Positions 11,359 through 17,549 of a stretch of DNA of 34,823 nucleotides are shown in pieces. Position numbers and translations under genes: made by a program. Origin of the DNA: Alicyclobacillus tolerans (lineage in GTDB: Bacteria > Bacillota > Bacilli > Alicyclobacillales > Alicyclobacillaceae). The stretch spans positions 1-34,823 of the forward strand of contig NZ_JXBW01000026.1 of the NCBI RefSeq assembly GCF_001447355.1. Reading direction: 5' to 3'. Under the pieces are notes generated by a model. It was not told where the DNA came from and made no database searches. It saw only the letters and a list, made by a program, of their open reading frames with translations. Numbering within the stretch: position 1 is the first letter of the stretch; each line of letters starts with the position of its first letter.

Positions 11359-12036
11359 TTACGTAAGCAACGGTACCAGACTGGGCGCGAGTGCCAGCGT
11401 AATGAAGGCTGCAATTACCATCGACAGACTTGAGCAAGTACCTTCCATTTGCCCCATTTCAAACGCACGCGCCGTGCCGATGCCATGGCATCCCATGCCG
11501 AAGATGGCACCTTTGGCGATTGCGGATCGAATGCGGACATAGCGGATGACGAGGGGTCCGATGACGACGCCGGAAATACCAGTAATAATGACGAATACGG
11601 CCGTAAGCGTTGGAATGCCGCCAATGGTTTGCGAGATGTCCATGGCAATCGGAGTCGTCACTGACCTAGGCGCAACACTGGTCTCAATCATGCCGCCTAG
11701 GCGCATGAGCCGCGCGAGGAGGATGGACGACACAATGGCGGCCGCAGCGCCGGAGACGAGGCTGACAAGGAACTCAAGCCAATGCGCTTTTAATATGTGC
11801 ACGTTTCGATACAATGGGATGGCAAGAGCCACCGTCGCCGGACTCAGCATGTCGGTCAGCCATTTGCCGCTTGCAAAGTAGGTATGGTATGAAACGTGCG
11901 CCAAGGATAGGAATGCAATCAGTACGGCTAAGCACGTCAGTACAGGATTCAAAAATACATAGTGAAAGCGCTGATACAATTTTTTGCAAATCCCGTAGCA
12001 AATCAAGGTCGATACGAGACCAAGCCACATTACCAT
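11359..12036 (-). CDS. cidB: LrgB/CidB family membrane protein
   Basis: LrgB/CidB proteins are polytopic membrane proteins that work with a CidA/LrgA partner. The pair was first described as holin-antiholin-like and is now also linked to pyruvate or overflow-metabolite movement. The 225-residue product has about six to seven hydrophobic segments. It carries the family core LSPATVALAIPLYRN, SVAPRSVTTPIAMDIS and GMGCHGIGTARAFEMG. Its ATG overlaps the stop codon of cidA (ATGGTAA), which indicates translational coupling. The gene order and the divergent LysR gene match ywbH-ywbG and ywbI of Bacillus subtilis, favouring CidB over LrgB naming. Confidence 0.9.
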   Translation of the reverse strand: MVMWLGLVSTLICYGICKKLYQRFHYVFLNPVLTCLAVLIAFLSLAHVSYHTYFASGKWLTDMLSPATVALAIPLYRNVHILKAHWLEFLVSLVSGAAAAIVSSILLARLMRLGGMIETSVAPRSVTTPIAMDISQTIGGIPTLTAVFVIITGISGVVIGPLVIRYVRIRSAIAKGAIFGMGCHGIGTARAFEMGQMEGTCSSLSMVIAAFITLALAPSLVPLLT

Positions 12037-12473
12037 GATGCCACCTCTTTTGCATCTTCATGTGCTGTGCGGCGAGTGCGGCGCCGCTGCCTTGCCTTCC
12101 AGATGTTATCGGCCATGGTGCCCGTGACGAGCATGACAATAGCTGTGCTACAAACAATCGTGACTAAAATTTGTAATCCCTCATGTAACATCAAGTGTCC
12201 GTATGTCATAATGCCGACGGACGAAGGGACGAAAAATAAAAGCATCTCGCGAATTAAAAGGTCGCCGCCACGAGCAATCCAGTCGAGTCTCAGTACCCGA
12301 AATTGCAGCAGCAAAAACAAGATGATGAGGCCAAAAATACTGCCGGGAATGGGCGTGTGCAGCAATTTCGAGATAAACCCACCAATATCGGCCAACCCGT
12401 ACAAAACTGCGATCTGCAGAATGAGAACCGCAATTGCCACGGTTTTTTTGCGTATCCATGTCAAGCGTTGCAT
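12030..12473 (-). CDS. cidA: CidA/LrgA family holin-like protein
   Basis: This small membrane protein of 147 residues has four hydrophobic segments and the family signature HTPIPGSIFGLIILFLLLQF (residues about 39-58). FVPSSVGIMTYGHLM follows about 30 residues later. The tail is strongly basic (ARQRRRTRR) and presumably cytoplasmic. Partnered with cidB, it is proposed to affect autolysis and metabolite flux at the membrane. The ATG at 12473 follows an AAAGGAAG ribosome site. The upstream gap to the divergent LysR gene (12474-12581) should hold both promoters. Confidence 0.88.
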   Translation of the reverse strand: MQRLTWIRKKTVAIAVLILQIAVLYGLADIGGFISKLLHTPIPGSIFGLIILFLLLQFRVLRLDWIARGGDLLIREMLLFFVPSSVGIMTYGHLMLHEGLQILVTIVCSTAIVMLVTGTMADNIWKARQRRRTRRTAHEDAKEVASW

Positions 12474-12543: not shown

Positions 12544-12581
12544 TGAATGAGTCGAAAAACGAATCATGAAATGGGGTGATG

Positions 12582-13457
12582 ATGACGGAACTTCGTCAAC
12601 TCGAATACTTCGTCGCCGTCGCTGAGGAGTTGCATTTTGGCCGCGCCGCGAAACGTCTTGGTCTGACACAGCCTCCCTTAAGTCAGCAAATCCGACAATT
12701 GGAAGGTGAGCTTGGGGTGCGTCTGTTGGATCGAACCAACCGCAAGGTGCGCTTGACCGACGCGGGAATGGCCTACTTACAGGAGGTGCGCCAGGTTTTG
12801 GCACGGTTGCAGGCGGCCACCGAGACGGCAAGACGAGCCGCGTCTGGCGCCGTTGGTAAACTTGTCGTTGGCTTTGTCGGGTCGGCTACGTATGATTGGT
12901 TGCCACCCGTCATTCGCCGTTATCAGGAACTCTGCCCAGGCGTCGAGCTCATCTTGCGTGAAATGCCGACACCGGCGCAAATGGAAGCTCTCCTCACGGG
13001 TGCGATCGACGTCGGTGTGCTGCGCACCCCGGCTGCTCATCCGGATTTGCATGTGTGTTCAATTCGGCGGGACGAGTGTGTGGTTGTGTTGCCGGTCGGC
13101 AGTGACTTAGCGGCCAAAAGCGGCGTCCACATGGAGGATTTACAGGGCGAGCCGTTGGTGCTTGTCGCGCGATCGATCTGGCCCGGGCTGTATGACAGTG
13201 TCGTCACGCTCTGTCGGGCGGCCGGCTTCGGTCCGACCATTCGTCTCGAAGTCACGGAGGTGCAAACTGCCGTTGGGCTGGTTGCGGCCGGCATGGGCGT
13301 GAGCATCTTGCCAAAGGCGACGCAAAACGTGCATGCGCGCGAAGTGCGATACGTACCCATCGAAGGGCCGGCACCAGTGGTGGAATTGGGCATTGCTTGG
13401 CGGCGAGACGACGATTCCAGCGTTGTCCAGCGGTTTTTGCAGATTGCTCAGGATTGA
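12582..13457 (+). CDS. cidR: LysR-type regulator CidR
   Basis: This LysR-family activator has an N-terminal helix-turn-helix (FGRAAKRLGLTQPPLSQQI) and a C-terminal effector domain. The 291-residue length is typical. It is divergent from cidA-cidB, as CidR/YwbI is in staphylococci and bacilli, where it responds to acetate or carbon overflow. The name therefore rests mainly on position. Three tandem candidate starts exist (GTG 12576, ATG 12579, ATG 12582). The GGGGTGAT site (12573-12580) gives workable spacing only for the last. The stop codon overlaps the -35 box of the next promoter. Confidence 0.85.
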   Translation: MTELRQLEYFVAVAEELHFGRAAKRLGLTQPPLSQQIRQLEGELGVRLLDRTNRKVRLTDAGMAYLQEVRQVLARLQAATETARRAASGAVGKLVVGFVGSATYDWLPPVIRRYQELCPGVELILREMPTPAQMEALLTGAIDVGVLRTPAAHPDLHVCSIRRDECVVVLPVGSDLAAKSGVHMEDLQGEPLVLVARSIWPGLYDSVVTLCRAAGFGPTIRLEVTEVQTAVGLVAAGMGVSILPKATQNVHAREVRYVPIEGPAPVVELGIAWRRDDDSSVVQRFLQIAQD

Positions 13458-13483
13458 CAAATGAAGAAACAAAGTGTTATGTT
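13454..13483 (+). promoter_or_regulatory. Promoter of the leader peptide and ABC exporter operon
   Basis: A perfect -35 TTGACA (13454-13459) is followed 18 bp later by TATGTT (13478-13483), preceded by TG at 13475-13476 as an extended -10. The predicted start is near 13490. The -35 box overlaps the cidR stop codon. Confidence 0.65.
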
Positions 13484-13519
13484 ATATTCTGACTTCACGC
13501 GAAAGGAGTGTGCATTCCC

Positions 13520-13603
13520 ATGATTCGTATGCTGACGATTGCACTGGTTCCCATGGTCATCCGCTCGGGAATGCGACCTCCGTCTCGTTGCGCGAAAGCA
13601 TGA
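13520..13603 (+). CDS. Leader peptide of the BmrCD-type exporter operon
   Basis: A 27-codon open frame begins with ATG at 13520 and ends with TGA at 13601-13603. AAAGGAG (13502-13508) lies 11 nt upstream. The peptide starts MIRMLTIALVPMVIRSG, continues MRPPSR and ends CAKA. It lies between a good promoter and two tandem terminators ahead of a BmrC/BmrD-like exporter. That matches bmrB of Bacillus subtilis, a leader peptide whose antibiotic-stalled translation lets transcription continue into bmrCD. I do not claim sequence similarity to BmrB. The role is inferred from position and from the RNA pairings that run through the frame. Confidence 0.65.
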   Translation: MIRMLTIALVPMVIRSGMRPPSRCAKA

Positions 13604-13619
13604 GCAAACGAGTACATAT

Positions 13620-13652
13620 CGCGGGTCGCGTTCCGACGCGGCTCGCGTTTTT
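13620..13652 (+). terminator. Terminator 1 of the exporter leader
   Basis: CGCGGGTCGCGT (13620-13631) and ACGCGGCTCGCG (13636-13647) form a 12-bp stem with two G-U pairs and a TCCG loop, followed by five T (13648-13652). It is very GC-rich and should be efficient. Confidence 0.85.
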
Positions 13653-13680
13653 CATTTGCATGGTTTGCAAATGAAATTAC

Positions 13681-13708
13681 GGCATGCCGCGTCAGGTATG
13701 CCTTTTTT
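13681..13708 (+). terminator. Terminator 2 of the exporter leader
   Basis: GGCATGCC (13681-13688) and GGTATGCC (13695-13702) form an 8-bp stem with one G-U pair and a 6-nt loop, followed by six T. It ends 17 nt before the bmrC start. A separate hairpin (CATTTGCA with TGCAAATG, 13653-13673) lies between the two terminators. Confidence 0.75.
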
Positions 13709-13725
13709 GTGTAGGAGGACGAAAC

Positions 13726-15513
13726 GTGTTCCAAGTATTGTGGAAATTGCGATGGTTTTTCTGGCAACAGCGAAAGCGCTATGCCATTGCCGTTGGCCTG
13801 CTCTTGTTCCTCAACTTCGTTGAGGTCGCTCCACCGGATATCGTGGGGCGCGCCATCGATTTGATGAATCAGCGGGGGATGACGGCGGGCACGTTGTGGG
13901 ATCTCGTCGGCGCCCTGGCGCTTGTCATTGTCATCAGCTATACGTGCGGCTTCACCTGGCAGTATCAGTTGTACGGGGGTGCGCGCGTGCTCGAGTTGTC
14001 GCTGCGCAAGCGGCTCATGCGACACTTTCTCCAAATGACGCCGCGATTCTTTGAACAGAATCGCACCGGAGACTTAATGGCGAGATCGACCAACGACCTA
14101 AATGCGGTTTCACAGACCGCCGGGTTCGGCATTTTGACGTTGATCGACTCGACCACCTATTCCGCGACCATTCTTGTGACGATGGGCTCCTTGGACGGAT
14201 GGAGGTTGACGTTGCTTTCACTCGTCCCCATGCCGTTTATCGCCTTGGCGATGACCAAGTATGGGAAGATGTTGCACGAGCGATTCACACTTGCGCAGGA
14301 CGCGTTTGGCGATATGAACGATCGCGTCTTGGAGACCATAGCCGGCATTCGTGTCGTGCGGGCCTACGCGCAGGAAAAGCACGAGGAGGAGCGCTTCGCG
14401 GCGACGATGGCCGATGTCTATCGCAAGAACATCGCCGTGGCGCGCATTGACGCGTTGTTCGATCCGACCATCAGCATGCTTGTTGGCATTACCTATTTGA
14501 TTGGCCTTGGCTACGGGACTTACCTCGTCTTTCAAAGCCAGCTGACGATTGGCCAACTGACGTCGTTTAACGTCTATCTGGGAATGTTGATTTGGCCGAT
14601 GCTTGCCTTCGGACAGTTGATTAACATCATGCAACGCGGCAACGCATCTCTGGATCGAGTCAACGAGACACTTGCGTACAAGCCGGATGTCGTCGATCCG
14701 CCGACAACCGTGGCCGTTGACCGCCCTGAGGAGATCCGCTTTGAACACCTGACCTTCCGCTATCCAACTTCGGATCGAGACAACCTGAGCGACATCGAAC
14801 TCGTTATTCGCCGCGGTGAAACCCTAGGCATTGTGGGGCGCACAGGGAGTGGCAAATCGACATTGCTACGCCAGTTGCTTCGCGAGTATCCACCATCGCA
14901 AACAGGTGCCTTGACCATCGGCGGCGTGCGGATCGAACAGATTGCCATGGATATCGTGCACGGTTGGTTGGGATATGTCCCGCAGAATCCCATGCTGTTC
15001 TCGCGCAGCGTCCGCGATAACGTGCGCTTTGGTCGGCACGATGCGACGGACGCCGAAGTCCTGGAAGCCTTGCGCCTCGCCGATTTTGTGAAAGATCTTG
15101 AAAGGCTGCCAAACGGCCTCGACACGTTGGTTGGAGAACGTGGGATTTCGCTCTCCGGCGGACAGAAACAGCGCATTGCTCTGGCGCGGGCCCTGCTCGT
15201 CGATCCTGAGATTCTCATTCTTGACGACGCCATGTCTGCTGTCGATGCCCGCACGGAGGCACATATCATCGAATCGATCCGCTCGGTTCGCCAAGGCAGG
15301 ACTACTCTTATCGCAAGCCACCGCATGTCGGCAGTCGCACATGCCGATTGGATTGTCGTGATGGATGATGGGCGGATCGCAGAAGAAGGCACGTTTGCCG
15401 ATTTGATGGCGCAGGGAGGCTGGTACGCGCAACAGTACGAGCGCCAGCAAGCGTACGGGGAAGAGGCACTGGATGACAGCGATGCCATTGCTTTGGCGGA
15501 GGAACGGGGGTGA
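13726..15513 (+). CDS. bmrC: Heterodimeric multidrug ABC exporter, BmrC-like subunit
   Basis: The 595-residue half-transporter has six membrane helices in the first ~310 residues and an ABC ATPase domain after them. Walker A is GRTGSGKST and the signature is LSGGQKQR. Walker B ends LILDD, with Asp501 where an active ATPase has Glu. This non-catalytic Walker B is typical of BmrC and other asymmetric exporters, which supports pairing with the next gene. The H-loop His is kept (IASHRMS). The GTG start is fixed by AGGAGG (13713-13718) with 7-nt spacing. The stop codon overlaps the GTG of the partner gene. Expression is probably controlled by the upstream attenuator. Confidence 0.88.
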   Translation: MFQVLWKLRWFFWQQRKRYAIAVGLLLFLNFVEVAPPDIVGRAIDLMNQRGMTAGTLWDLVGALALVIVISYTCGFTWQYQLYGGARVLELSLRKRLMRHFLQMTPRFFEQNRTGDLMARSTNDLNAVSQTAGFGILTLIDSTTYSATILVTMGSLDGWRLTLLSLVPMPFIALAMTKYGKMLHERFTLAQDAFGDMNDRVLETIAGIRVVRAYAQEKHEEERFAATMADVYRKNIAVARIDALFDPTISMLVGITYLIGLGYGTYLVFQSQLTIGQLTSFNVYLGMLIWPMLAFGQLINIMQRGNASLDRVNETLAYKPDVVDPPTTVAVDRPEEIRFEHLTFRYPTSDRDNLSDIELVIRRGETLGIVGRTGSGKSTLLRQLLREYPPSQTGALTIGGVRIEQIAMDIVHGWLGYVPQNPMLFSRSVRDNVRFGRHDATDAEVLEALRLADFVKDLERLPNGLDTLVGERGISLSGGQKQRIALARALLVDPEILILDDAMSAVDARTEAHIIESIRSVRQGRTTLIASHRMSAVAHADWIVVMDDGRIAEEGTFADLMAQGGWYAQQYERQQAYGEEALDDSDAIALAEERG

Positions 15514-17549
15514 TTGATCTGAACGCCGAAAAGCAGGTAAACAAGCGACTTGTGGAATATGCAGCACATGCGAAGGGAGCCATCGCGTTAGCCATTGTCA
15601 TGCTTGTACTCGCCGTGGCGGCGCAGTTGGCAGGGCCGTTTGTCGCAAAGGCCATTATCAATCGACACATCATGGGCATTCAGCAGGTCTGGTACGAGGT
15701 GACACCGCGAGCCGGCGGCGCGGTCGAGTGGGAAGGCAAGTGGTATGTGCGGGCCGACCGAATGCCGGCGCAGAGCAAGCGATTAAACCCACACACGCTG
15801 GTGGCCGTGGGCACGCGTACGTATTTTCTCGACGGCGTGGTATCGCATGTCGCGCGAGGCAATGAGGCAGGCCAGATTCGCGAACAAGAGGGCGGTCGCT
15901 CGCAGCTGATCACGGCCAGGCCGTTGACACGGCAGCAGCTGTTTTCGTTTTATCGTCCCGAAATCCCGGGCGTCATTCGGTTGGCTTTGGTCTACTTCGG
16001 ACTGCTCGCTGGCGCCGCAATCTTTTTGTACGGTCAGCAGTACTTGTTACAAGTATCGGCAAACCGGATTTTACAGCGGATGCGCAAGGACGTATTTCAC
16101 CAAATTCATCGTTTGCCGATCCGCTATTTTGACAACTTACCAGCCGGCAAGGTCGTCTCGCGCATTACGAACGACACAGAAGCCATTCGCGACTTTTACG
16201 TAAATGTGCTCGCCAACGTATTGTCAAGTATCGCGACGATGGTCGGTATCTACGTCGCTCTGTTCATTCTGAACGTCTGGCTCGGCCTGATGGCGAGTAT
16301 TTTAATCCCGATTTTGATCGTCTGGATTTGGTTATACCGACGGGCGACGGTCTCCGTCAATGTACGCATTCGAGCCCTTTTATCCGAGATCAACGCGATG
16401 TTGAATGAAACGATCCAGGGCGTCCCTATCATTCGCGCCTTTCATCGCGAACAACGGACACAAGCCGAGTTCGACGAGCTTAACCAAGCGTATTACGATG
16501 GGCAAACGCGGTTGCTTCGCGTAAATTCAGCGACGGGATTTAATCTGGCCGGCGTCTTTCGCAATTCGTTTTTCATCGCTGTTATCGCCATCTTCGGCTG
16601 GCGCTCGATGCATCTGGAGTCTCTTGTCTCGTTTGGCGTCCTATATGCTTTTGTTGATTATCTGAACCGGCTTTTTCAACCCGTCACACAGGTTGTAAAC
16701 CAATTGGCCAATCTGGAACAGGCGCGCGCTTCCGCCGTTCGCGTATTTGAATTGCTCGACGAGCCCGGGGTCGATCCGGTGTTTGGCTCCATCCCGCGCT
16801 TTTGCGGCGAGGTGGAGTTTGACCATGTGACCTTTTCGTATGACGGTGAACATAACGTGTTGAAGAACGTATCGTTTCGCGCTCAGCCAGGTCAGACGGT
16901 GGCGCTCGTCGGACACACGGGGTCTGGGAAGAGTTCCATCATCAATCTGCTGTTCAGGTTTTACGATCCGCAGGGCGGTCAGATTCGCATCGATGGCGTC
17001 GATATTCGCACCATTGCACCGCAGCAATTGCGCCAGCACTTGGGGATTGTGCTGCAAGACCCGTATCTGTTTACGGGAACAGTTGCATGGAATGTCAGCC
17101 TTGGCGATGAACGCGTCTCGCGGGCAAGGGTGGAGCAGGCGTTGCGCGATGTCGGTGCCGATAGGCTGCTCGCACACTTGCCCAACGGCTGGGATGAACC
17201 GGTGCTAGAAGGCGGCAGCACCTTGTCGGCAGGCGAGCGCCAATTGATTTCGTTCGCCCGCGCTTTGGCGTTTGATCCGGCCATCCTCGTGCTCGACGAG
17301 GCCACGGCGAGCATCGACAGCGAAACCGAGCGCCTCATCCAAGACGCGCTCTCCGTACTCAAGCGAGGACGAACGACATTCATCATCGCGCACCGACTGT
17401 CAACCATCCGCGACGCGGATTTGATCCTCGTGCTGGATGCCGGCGAGATCGTCGAACGCGGAACGCACGATGAACTCATACGCCTTGGTGGGAAGTACCG
17501 CCAGATGTATGAGTTGCAAACAAATATGGCGCCGGCTAGCGGCGCCTAA
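15510..17549 (+). CDS. bmrD: Heterodimeric multidrug ABC exporter, BmrD-like subunit
   Basis: This is the catalytic partner of the preceding subunit, 679 residues long. The extra length comes from an insert between the first two membrane helices (residues about 50-150, with YEVTPRAGGAVEWEGKWY and TRTYFLDG), which would lie outside the cell and is also a feature of BmrD/YheH. Walker A is GHTGSGKSS and Walker B ends LVLDEA with catalytic Glu597. Its signature is altered (LSAGERQ), so the working ATP site is formed with the intact signature of the partner. The start is GTG within a GTGA overlap, behind GGCGGAGGAACGG. The substrate cannot be predicted. Confidence 0.88.
   Translation: MIDLNAEKQVNKRLVEYAAHAKGAIALAIVMLVLAVAAQLAGPFVAKAIINRHIMGIQQVWYEVTPRAGGAVEWEGKWYVRADRMPAQSKRLNPHTLVAVGTRTYFLDGVVSHVARGNEAGQIREQEGGRSQLITARPLTRQQLFSFYRPEIPGVIRLALVYFGLLAGAAIFLYGQQYLLQVSANRILQRMRKDVFHQIHRLPIRYFDNLPAGKVVSRITNDTEAIRDFYVNVLANVLSSIATMVGIYVALFILNVWLGLMASILIPILIVWIWLYRRATVSVNVRIRALLSEINAMLNETIQGVPIIRAFHREQRTQAEFDELNQAYYDGQTRLLRVNSATGFNLAGVFRNSFFIAVIAIFGWRSMHLESLVSFGVLYAFVDYLNRLFQPVTQVVNQLANLEQARASAVRVFELLDEPGVDPVFGSIPRFCGEVEFDHVTFSYDGEHNVLKNVSFRAQPGQTVALVGHTGSGKSSIINLLFRFYDPQGGQIRIDGVDIRTIAPQQLRQHLGIVLQDPYLFTGTVAWNVSLGDERVSRARVEQALRDVGADRLLAHLPNGWDEPVLEGGSTLSAGERQLISFARALAFDPAILVLDEATASIDSETERLIQDALSVLKRGRTTFIIAHRLSTIRDADLILVLDAGEIVERGTHDELIRLGGKYRQMYELQTNMAPASGA
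17528..17546. other. GC-rich hairpin at the end of bmrD
   Basis: GGCGCCG (17528-17534) and CGGCGCC (17540-17546) form a 7-bp stem directly before the bmrD stop codon. The next gene converges 11 nt away. No T-run follows, so it is at best a weak transcript end. Confidence 0.4.

Follow-up and report, generated by a model that had tools for sequence, protein, structure and literature searches.

The RNA leader in front of a bmrCD-type multidrug exporter of Alicyclobacillus tolerans is very likely a ribosome-mediated transcription attenuator, and it is best read as a ladder of six segments in which neighbours pair: 1:2 (H1), 2:3 (the antiterminator H2), 3:4 (terminator 1, T1), 4:5 (H3) and 5:6 (terminator 2, T2). 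It lies in a contig stretch of 34,823 nucleotides (NZ_JXBW01000026.1), which was analysed as a whole and is called the window below. The odd pairings (1:2, 3:4, 5:6) are mutually compatible and contain the terminators; the even pairings (2:3, 4:5) are compatible with each other and read through. We lean, with modest confidence, towards the whole explanation, i.e. a six-segment ladder attenuator that includes a relay through H3.

The proposed mechanism is as follows. With no ribosome on the leader, or with the leader already finished, the pairs 1:2 (hiding the Shine-Dalgarno sequence), 3:4 (T1) and 5:6 (T2) would form; transcription would end at T1, and the transcripts that escape would end at T2. 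A translation inhibitor would slow a ribosome within about the first half of the leader and so keep 1:2 apart, whereupon 2:3 (H2) would form and break T1. The freed right arm of T1 would then pair as 4:5 (H3, beside H2) ahead of synthesis of the T2 right arm; T2 would thus be broken too and bmrCD read. The drug trigger is proposed by analogy with bmrB of B. subtilis, and we infer the stall site and the use of H3. The fold energies and ribosome effects reported below are predictions of folding models.

Helices of the leader and its neighbouring genes

The helices were established by reading them from the sequence (Table 1). An earlier note on this DNA had proposed five helices that exclude one another in turn, and each was confirmed with the lengths and mismatches given there; H1, H2 and T1 are mutually exclusive by this reading, segments 2 and 3 being common to them. 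In the predicted fold H1 is extended by pairing of the leader Shine-Dalgarno GGAG with CUCC (13578-13581), so that in the predicted off state H1 would hide the leader's own ribosome site. H2 and H3 directly adjoin at 13634|13635 and could stack on each other.

Table 1. Features of the bmrCD leader and exporter genes in the window
Feature	Position	Strand	Basis or remark
Promoter-like site TTGACA-18-TATGTT, TG before second hexamer	13454..13483	+	10/12 consensus matches; consensus match alone
Leader Shine-Dalgarno GGAG	13505..13508	+	sequence; pairs with 13578-13581 in predicted off state
Segment 1, H1 5' arm, pairs with 13567-13574	13512..13519	+	fold, helix reading
Leader peptide ORF, 27 codons + TGA, MIRMLTIALVPMVIRSGMRPPSRCAKA	13520..13603	+	ORF reading
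Segment 2, shared by extended H1 (3' arm) and antiterminator H2 (5' arm)	13567..13581	+	fold, helix reading, relatives
Segment 3, T1 left arm (13620-13631) and H2 3' arm (13624-13634)	13620..13634	+	
Terminator 1, stem-loop 13620-13647 and U tract	13620..13652	+	sequence, consensus scan; homologous hairpin in 36-leader alignment
Segment 4, H3 5' arm within T1 loop and right arm	13635..13642	+	
Hairpin between terminators, 13650-13660:13666-13676, 11 pairs, inside H3 loop	13650..13676	+	
Terminator 2, stem-loop 13681-13702 and U tract	13681..13708	+	sequence, consensus scan; homologous hairpin in 36-leader alignment
Segment 5, H3 3' arm, inside T2	13686..13693	+	
H1, 8 Watson-Crick pairs	13512-13519:13567-13574		helix read from sequence
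H2, 11 pairs including one U-G	13568-13578:13624-13634		helix read from sequence
T1 stem, 12 pairs (two G-U type), then UUUUU	13620-13631:13636-13647		
H3, 8 perfect pairs	13635-13642:13686-13693		helix read from sequence
T2 stem, 8 pairs (one G-U type), then UUUUUU	13681-13688:13695-13702		
bmrC-type ABC exporter subunit, GTG start, AGGAGG at 13714-13719	13726..15513	+	best solved-structure match YheI, E 2.4e-224
bmrD-type ABC exporter subunit, 4-base overlap with bmrC	15510..17549	+	best solved-structure match YheH, E 4.1e-227

Thermodynamic folding, which the earlier note had proposed as a check, gave -97.3 kcal/mol for the leader stretch (z -4.36), a value reached by none of 200 dinucleotide shuffles. 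T1 and T2 were recovered independently by a consensus terminator scan, which found 3 sites against 0.5 expected, the third overlapping T1; judging from their sequence, both U tracts presumably terminate transcription. The pairing of segments 2 and 3 scored z -4.9 in the window, and the H3 duplex (-21.1 kcal/mol) z -3.7 versus shuffles of its two segments. A scan with 4227 Rfam models at gathering score gave no match in the leader. The only match in the window at that score was 5S rRNA (222-338).

Sequence comparison identifies the two genes downstream as BmrC and BmrD orthologues, B. subtilis YheI and YheH being the best matches among solved structures, which bears out the multidrug exporter of the earlier note. 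The window BmrC is 98% identical to that of A. hesperidum and 94% to that of A. sacchari, and T2 ends 23 bases upstream of bmrC. The leader ORF has the same length in two close relatives (G009 and G011). Upstream, the promoter-like site overlaps the stop of a LysR-type regulator ORF (12576-13457, +); the top profile match of this ORF, AlsR, scores 347.6 bits, below the cut-off of 430. This ORF is divergent from a pair of membrane-protein ORFs (11359-12036 and 12030-12473, both -), which we take, by eye, to be small membrane proteins resembling LrgB/CidB and LrgA/CidA.

Recurrence of the leader among Bacillales

When the leader sequence was searched as DNA against the genus, 3 of 15 genomes matched, counting the one that holds the window; relatives were therefore gathered via the BmrC protein. 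The 400 bases upstream of 114 bmrC homologues were screened with one fixed terminator rule. At least one intrinsic terminator was found in 109 of these leaders, versus 13 of 114 shuffled ones (one dinucleotide shuffle each), and two tandem terminators preceded 62 of the 114 homologues, including at least five with doubtful hairpin homology (L011, L016, L064, L068, L073), versus none of the 114 shuffled leaders. T1 and T2 could be aligned in 36 leaders (35 of 39 listed, L013, L033, L061 and L067 being left out, plus L095), and in this alignment 18 of 20 pairs changed on both sides with pairing kept. A covariance model of T1 and T2 gave a single match in 13 out of 41 family genomes; by coordinates, all of these matches lie immediately before bmrC, and no second copy of the element was found in the 41 genomes (E ≤ 0.01, with stricter filters).

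The tandem arrangement varies within this set. The 20 genus Bacillus leaders that were fetched, out of 43 genomes with a match, comprised 10 with two terminators and 10 with one. Five Alicyclobacillus relatives (L086-L090, from G014, G008, G003, G002 and G010) have a T1 hairpin followed by CCAACUCA or similar instead of a U tract, while their T2 has kept its U tract. This rules out T1 as a terminator everywhere. The B. subtilis-type leader L108 has one U-tract terminator, resembling T2 of its relative L117; the idea of two U-tract terminators in the B. subtilis type as well was dropped, a second one not being seen in L108.

We then scored the pairings around the leader ORF. A script picked 77 tandem candidates; for the 1:2 and 2:3 scores 27 of these were set aside and 3 lost for want of an ORF, leaving 47. 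The pairing of the Shine-Dalgarno/start region with segment 2 (1:2) had a mean z of -2.4 and that of segment 2 with segment 3 (2:3) a mean z of -2.3 over these 47 leaders; the ORF that the 1:2 scoring picked for the window, L004, L012 and L013 was not the right one, and 1:2 in the window rests on direct helix reading and on L034. Separately, visual inspection removed 23 of the 77 candidates, whose hairpin pairs looked wrong or doubtful, and the remaining 54 leaders served for H2 covariation, H3 duplex energies and the expected pairs between segments 4 and 5. The segment-3 motif is missing in 21 of them. In the other 33, one H2 pair is G-C in 22, A-U in 10, G-U in 1 and A-C in none (Fisher P = 1.2e-7, with kinship ignored and with segment 2 picked as the best complement, a choice that favours pairing), and two H2 positions further out are broken in 3 and 8 of the 33. 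An ORF with a Shine-Dalgarno sequence was present in 47 of 50 tandem leaders under a lenient ORF rule. Their peptides have diverged, so that what recurs is the pairing and an ORF as such.

At the sequence level, 1:2, 2:3, T1 and T2 are thus established as recurrent among relatives, and the comparison gives good support to H1 and H2 recurring across Bacillales leaders, H2 with compensatory change. Together with the frequency of tandem terminators upstream of bmrC homologues, this agrees with the leader-peptide attenuation of bmrCD type that the earlier note had put forward.

Folding with a ribosome and the proposed relay through H3

Two equilibrium models were used for a ribosome on the leader. 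Model A folds the RNA downstream of the ribosome alone, and model B masks the bases covered by the ribosome and leaves the upstream RNA free to pair. With the main settings of model A (offset 14, 37 °C; 18 P-site codon positions tested), T1 at transcript end 13649 was predicted at 0.11 or less for codons 6-12, versus 0.98 from codon 14 on. T2 at 13704 was 0.09-0.21 at codons 5-8 and 11-12 and 1.0 from codon 15 on, where neither terminator was below 0.97, so that both terminators were relieved at P-site codons 6-8 and 11-12. At codons 9-10, H2 can extend into segment 4, and T2 was then 0.76. A change of the footprint by 3 bases either way moved the pattern by one codon. At 55 °C, which is nearer the growth temperature of these thermophiles, T2 did not exceed 0.41 at codons 1-13, and T1 stayed at or below 0.32 at codons 4-12.

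When H3 was forbidden in model A, T2 was 1.0 at all 18 codon positions. Since T2 stays complete with segments 4 and 5 unpaired, H3 would be the sole route to T2 relief in this model. With the transcript ending at 13694 or 13700, H3 was predicted at 0.99-1.0 for codons 1-14; for codons 15-29 it also reached 0.26-0.89 at end 13694, dropping to 0.01-0.69 at 13700.

Model B placed the effect elsewhere. T1 was relieved at codons 1-5 (0.28 or less; 0.03 or less at codons 1-3), and at end 13704 T2 remained at 0.87-1.0 for codons 1-3, with 0.42-0.45 for codons 4-5. With the transcript ending at 13725, T1 returned to 0.80-0.93 at codons 1-3 and T2 was 0.11 at codons 4-5. For the relief of both terminators this model points to codons 4-5. 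The suggestion of the earlier note, that a ribosome stalled at H1 and the start codon sets off the chain, holds in this masked model for T1 but not for T2. At codons 6-11 of model B, H1 re-forms across the ribosome, which we think unrealistic, the 47-base loop having to hold a ribosome. Without a ribosome, the full-length fold gave a clean off state at 13649 (T1 0.93) and at 13725 (T1 0.97, T2 1.0) and a mixed one at 13704 (T1 0.37, H3 0.60, T2 0.40). As the two models disagree on the relieving codons, folding does not fix the stall site: the ribosome position that the models require depends on which of them is used.

The evidence for H3 differs with the range of leaders considered. In a hand-made set of 11 leaders in or near the family, which leaves out the duplicates G009 and G004 and the near-copy G010 and leans towards H3 by also excluding family leaders with no clear T1 partner (among them G012 and G018, which showed no pairing of this kind), 72 of 88 H3 cells were paired versus a permutation mean of 65.9 (P = 0.005; register set by hand on the core, kinship ignored). 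Breaks occur in 1 of 55 cells of the inner five pairs and in 15 of 33 cells of the outer three. Among the inner pairs, one is A-U instead of G-C in three leaders, and a different one is U-A instead of C-G in a single leader. Over the 54 leaders, the cognate H3 duplex averaged -10.2 kcal/mol versus -8.8 (SD 0.3) for permuted partners, with 0 of 500 permutations as low, a difference of which base composition can explain part; versus shuffles of the same segments the mean z was -1.3, and control pairings of the same arms averaged -8.8 and -7.5 kcal/mol. At the stage where the T2 right arm is still to be transcribed, segments 4 and 5 shared 8.5 expected pairs versus 5.8 for shuffles. This pairing reached the 5% level in 13 of the 54 leaders, the window not being among them (7 of 60 shuffles reach its value).

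Across the 36 aligned Bacilli leaders, H3 covariation was weak, with a score of 0.235 versus 0.207 and 29 of 500 shuffles as high; 3 pairs changed on both sides versus 3.2 in shuffles, and 77% of cells were paired versus 19-53% in slid versions. The covariation check asked for by the earlier note thus came out in favour of H2, moderately so for H3 in and near the family, and weakly for H3 across Bacilli. A folding test of switchability was run on 58 leaders, of which 55 were scored after the loss of 3 with no ORF (the ORFs of L012 and L013 are doubtful). By the set criterion, T1 was switchable in 17 and T2 in 3, i.e. the window, its twin L004, and L041; T2 switching required H3 in the first two and was independent of it in L041. 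In L034, the next relative, T2 fell short of the criterion (0.98 to 0.41). The earlier claim that H3 breaks T2 therefore stands for the downstream-only fold of the window, where T2 is relieved only if H3 is allowed, but does not extend to most leaders. H3 as a general Bacillales feature was not upheld, given the weak covariation and the few leaders with a switchable T2. Judged from these comparisons, H3 appears well founded in the window's clade, plausible in the family and weak across Bacilli; that the relay operates in the window's own leader we consider evenly balanced between yes and no.

The most far-reaching reading, which we hold tentatively and a little short of even confidence, is that this Alicyclobacillus clade has a true domino attenuator, in which a single decision, set by the ribosome's position on the leader peptide, is handed on from T1 to T2 by the parity of the pairings, and that the tandem ladder would be ancestral in Bacillales bmrCD control. 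Later, the B. subtilis type would have been simplified to a single U-tract terminator, and some Alicyclobacillus would have lost the T1 U tract. We considered the possibility that the two terminators simply stand in series: a stalled ribosome would act on T1 by way of H2, T2 would be a fixed partial terminator against leak, and H3 would be a by-product of similar left arms. The left arms of T1 and T2 have, by eye, a common GCA-rich base, so that the T1 right arm fits both; the weak H3 covariation across Bacilli and the contrast between 17 leaders with a switchable T1 and 3 with a switchable T2 also speak for this arrangement. Yet the H3 of the window, tied with that of its twin L004, is the strongest of the 54 leaders, well above the window's control pairings (-10.6 and -12.0 kcal/mol), and in and near the family its inner core is conserved, with a few compensatory changes. 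If T2 were a fixed terminator, it would moreover be expected to put a ceiling on induced expression. On balance we judge terminators in series with no relay to be the less probable account, though one with a real chance of being right.

It is unlikely, in our estimate, that T1 serves mainly as an anti-antiterminator hairpin with an optional U tract, T2 being the decisive terminator on which segment 2 may act directly in some leaders. This would suit the five Alicyclobacillus relatives that have a U tract at T2 only, in four of which T2 falls even with H3 forbidden, and the likeness of the sole U-tract terminator of L108 to T2 of L117. However, T1 has its U tract in the window and its close relatives, as well as in the remaining leaders scored as tandem, and T2 of the window is not relieved with H3 forbidden. 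It would be very surprising if the leader ORF were incidental and the RNA a ligand- or protein-controlled attenuator, even though the trigger proposed for A. tolerans comes from analogy. An ORF with a Shine-Dalgarno sequence is found in nearly all tandem leaders by the lenient rule despite the divergence of the peptides, the Shine-Dalgarno/start region pairs with segment 2, no Rfam family matches the leader, and, according to PMC4191407, translation of the bmrB leader is needed for bmrCD induction in B. subtilis. Should the relay hold, an RNA leader would be able to multiply the off-ratio of two terminators without two sensors.

Known attenuators and a second small ORF

The closest known system is bmrCD of B. 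subtilis, where ribosome-mediated attenuation by bmrB is described with one terminator, an antiterminator and an anti-antiterminator (PMC4191407). The window has the sequence features of this type, i.e. BmrC and BmrD downstream, a short ORF with a Shine-Dalgarno sequence, and mutually exclusive H1, H2 and T1; it thus shares with bmrB the exporter family, the leader peptide and the three kinds of hairpin. Segments 1, 2 and T2 have, by eye, counterparts in the B. subtilis-type leader L108. Unlike the window, bmrB is described in the available part of PMC4191407 with a single terminator and with neither a second terminator nor an H3 relay, in line with the one U-tract terminator of L108. Our comparative set suggests a larger family in Bacillales, of which the bmrB switch of B. 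subtilis would be a reduced form.

According to PMC4335068 and PMC5418344, the ermK attenuator of Bacillus licheniformis has two adjacent Rho-independent terminators; it has in common with the window, as read from the sequence of the latter, a leader-peptide attenuator of a drug-resistance gene with two adjacent terminators. ermK controls an rRNA methylase, whereas the genes downstream in the window encode ABC exporter subunits, and for this reason we did not file the leader as an ermK attenuator; it may nonetheless work like one. In work by Kwak in 1991, the ermK leader was reportedly described with two mutually exclusive conformations, and both terminators belong to the uninduced one. If the arm of ermK's first terminator opens its second one, the coupling principle is already known. 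The ermA leader has been described as a chain of alternating hairpins.

A relay has been proposed for vmlR of B. subtilis, where formation of the antiterminator promotes further pairing that competes with a downstream hairpin (PMC9226507). The logic, from an antiterminator to a further hairpin, is the same as in the window; by contrast, the last hairpin of vmlR partly hides the vmlR Shine-Dalgarno sequence and is not a second terminator, and the uORF has three codons. The attenuator upstream of patA in Streptococcus pneumoniae, with a predicted terminator, antiterminator and anti-antiterminator, stands before an ABC exporter pair as the window leader does, but it has one terminator and no leader peptide in the available part of its description (PMC4319486). 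The earlier note had called a two-terminator relay unfamiliar. This was too strong, because ermK has two adjacent terminators (PMC4335068) and vmlR a relay (PMC9226507). Within the open-access literature searched, we found no published case of two terminators coupled by a relay helix. We therefore regard the novelty as moderate: bmrB-like attenuation, two terminators (ermK) and a relay to a further hairpin (vmlR) are each known, and their combination appears to be new.

A second small ORF, ending (E/D/N)(S/G)G-stop, was found between the terminators and bmrC in 57 of the 114 leaders, versus none of 114 shuffled ones (one shuffle each), with its stop 19-78 bases before bmrC in a scan limited to 80 bases. 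It has about 11-27 codons in examples such as L078 (B. sonorensis), L108, L027, L040 and L120; no such ORF is present in the window. The serine of its end is encoded by AGC, AGT or TCG and the last glycine by all four codons, so that the peptide end is what is conserved, which points to selection acting on the peptide of this ORF. In bmrC translation it may act as an arrest peptide or in reinitiation. The B. subtilis-type leader carries one too, ending KEKIEGG, of which the available part of PMC4191407 makes no mention.

L108 fits the published bmrB gene, with a 162-base GTG ORF that ends 119 bases before bmrC. It also has a 23-codon ATG ORF (MPRNLRVYQTVSYWRGKPFVLFS) with the Shine-Dalgarno sequence GGAGGG, from 297 to 225 bases before bmrC, which occupies the leader-ORF position of other Bacillales leaders. 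The 53-codon GTG ORF that fits annotated bmrB starts 16 bases after the start of this shorter ORF and has no clear Shine-Dalgarno sequence. The functional leader peptide of L108 may be the 23-codon one.
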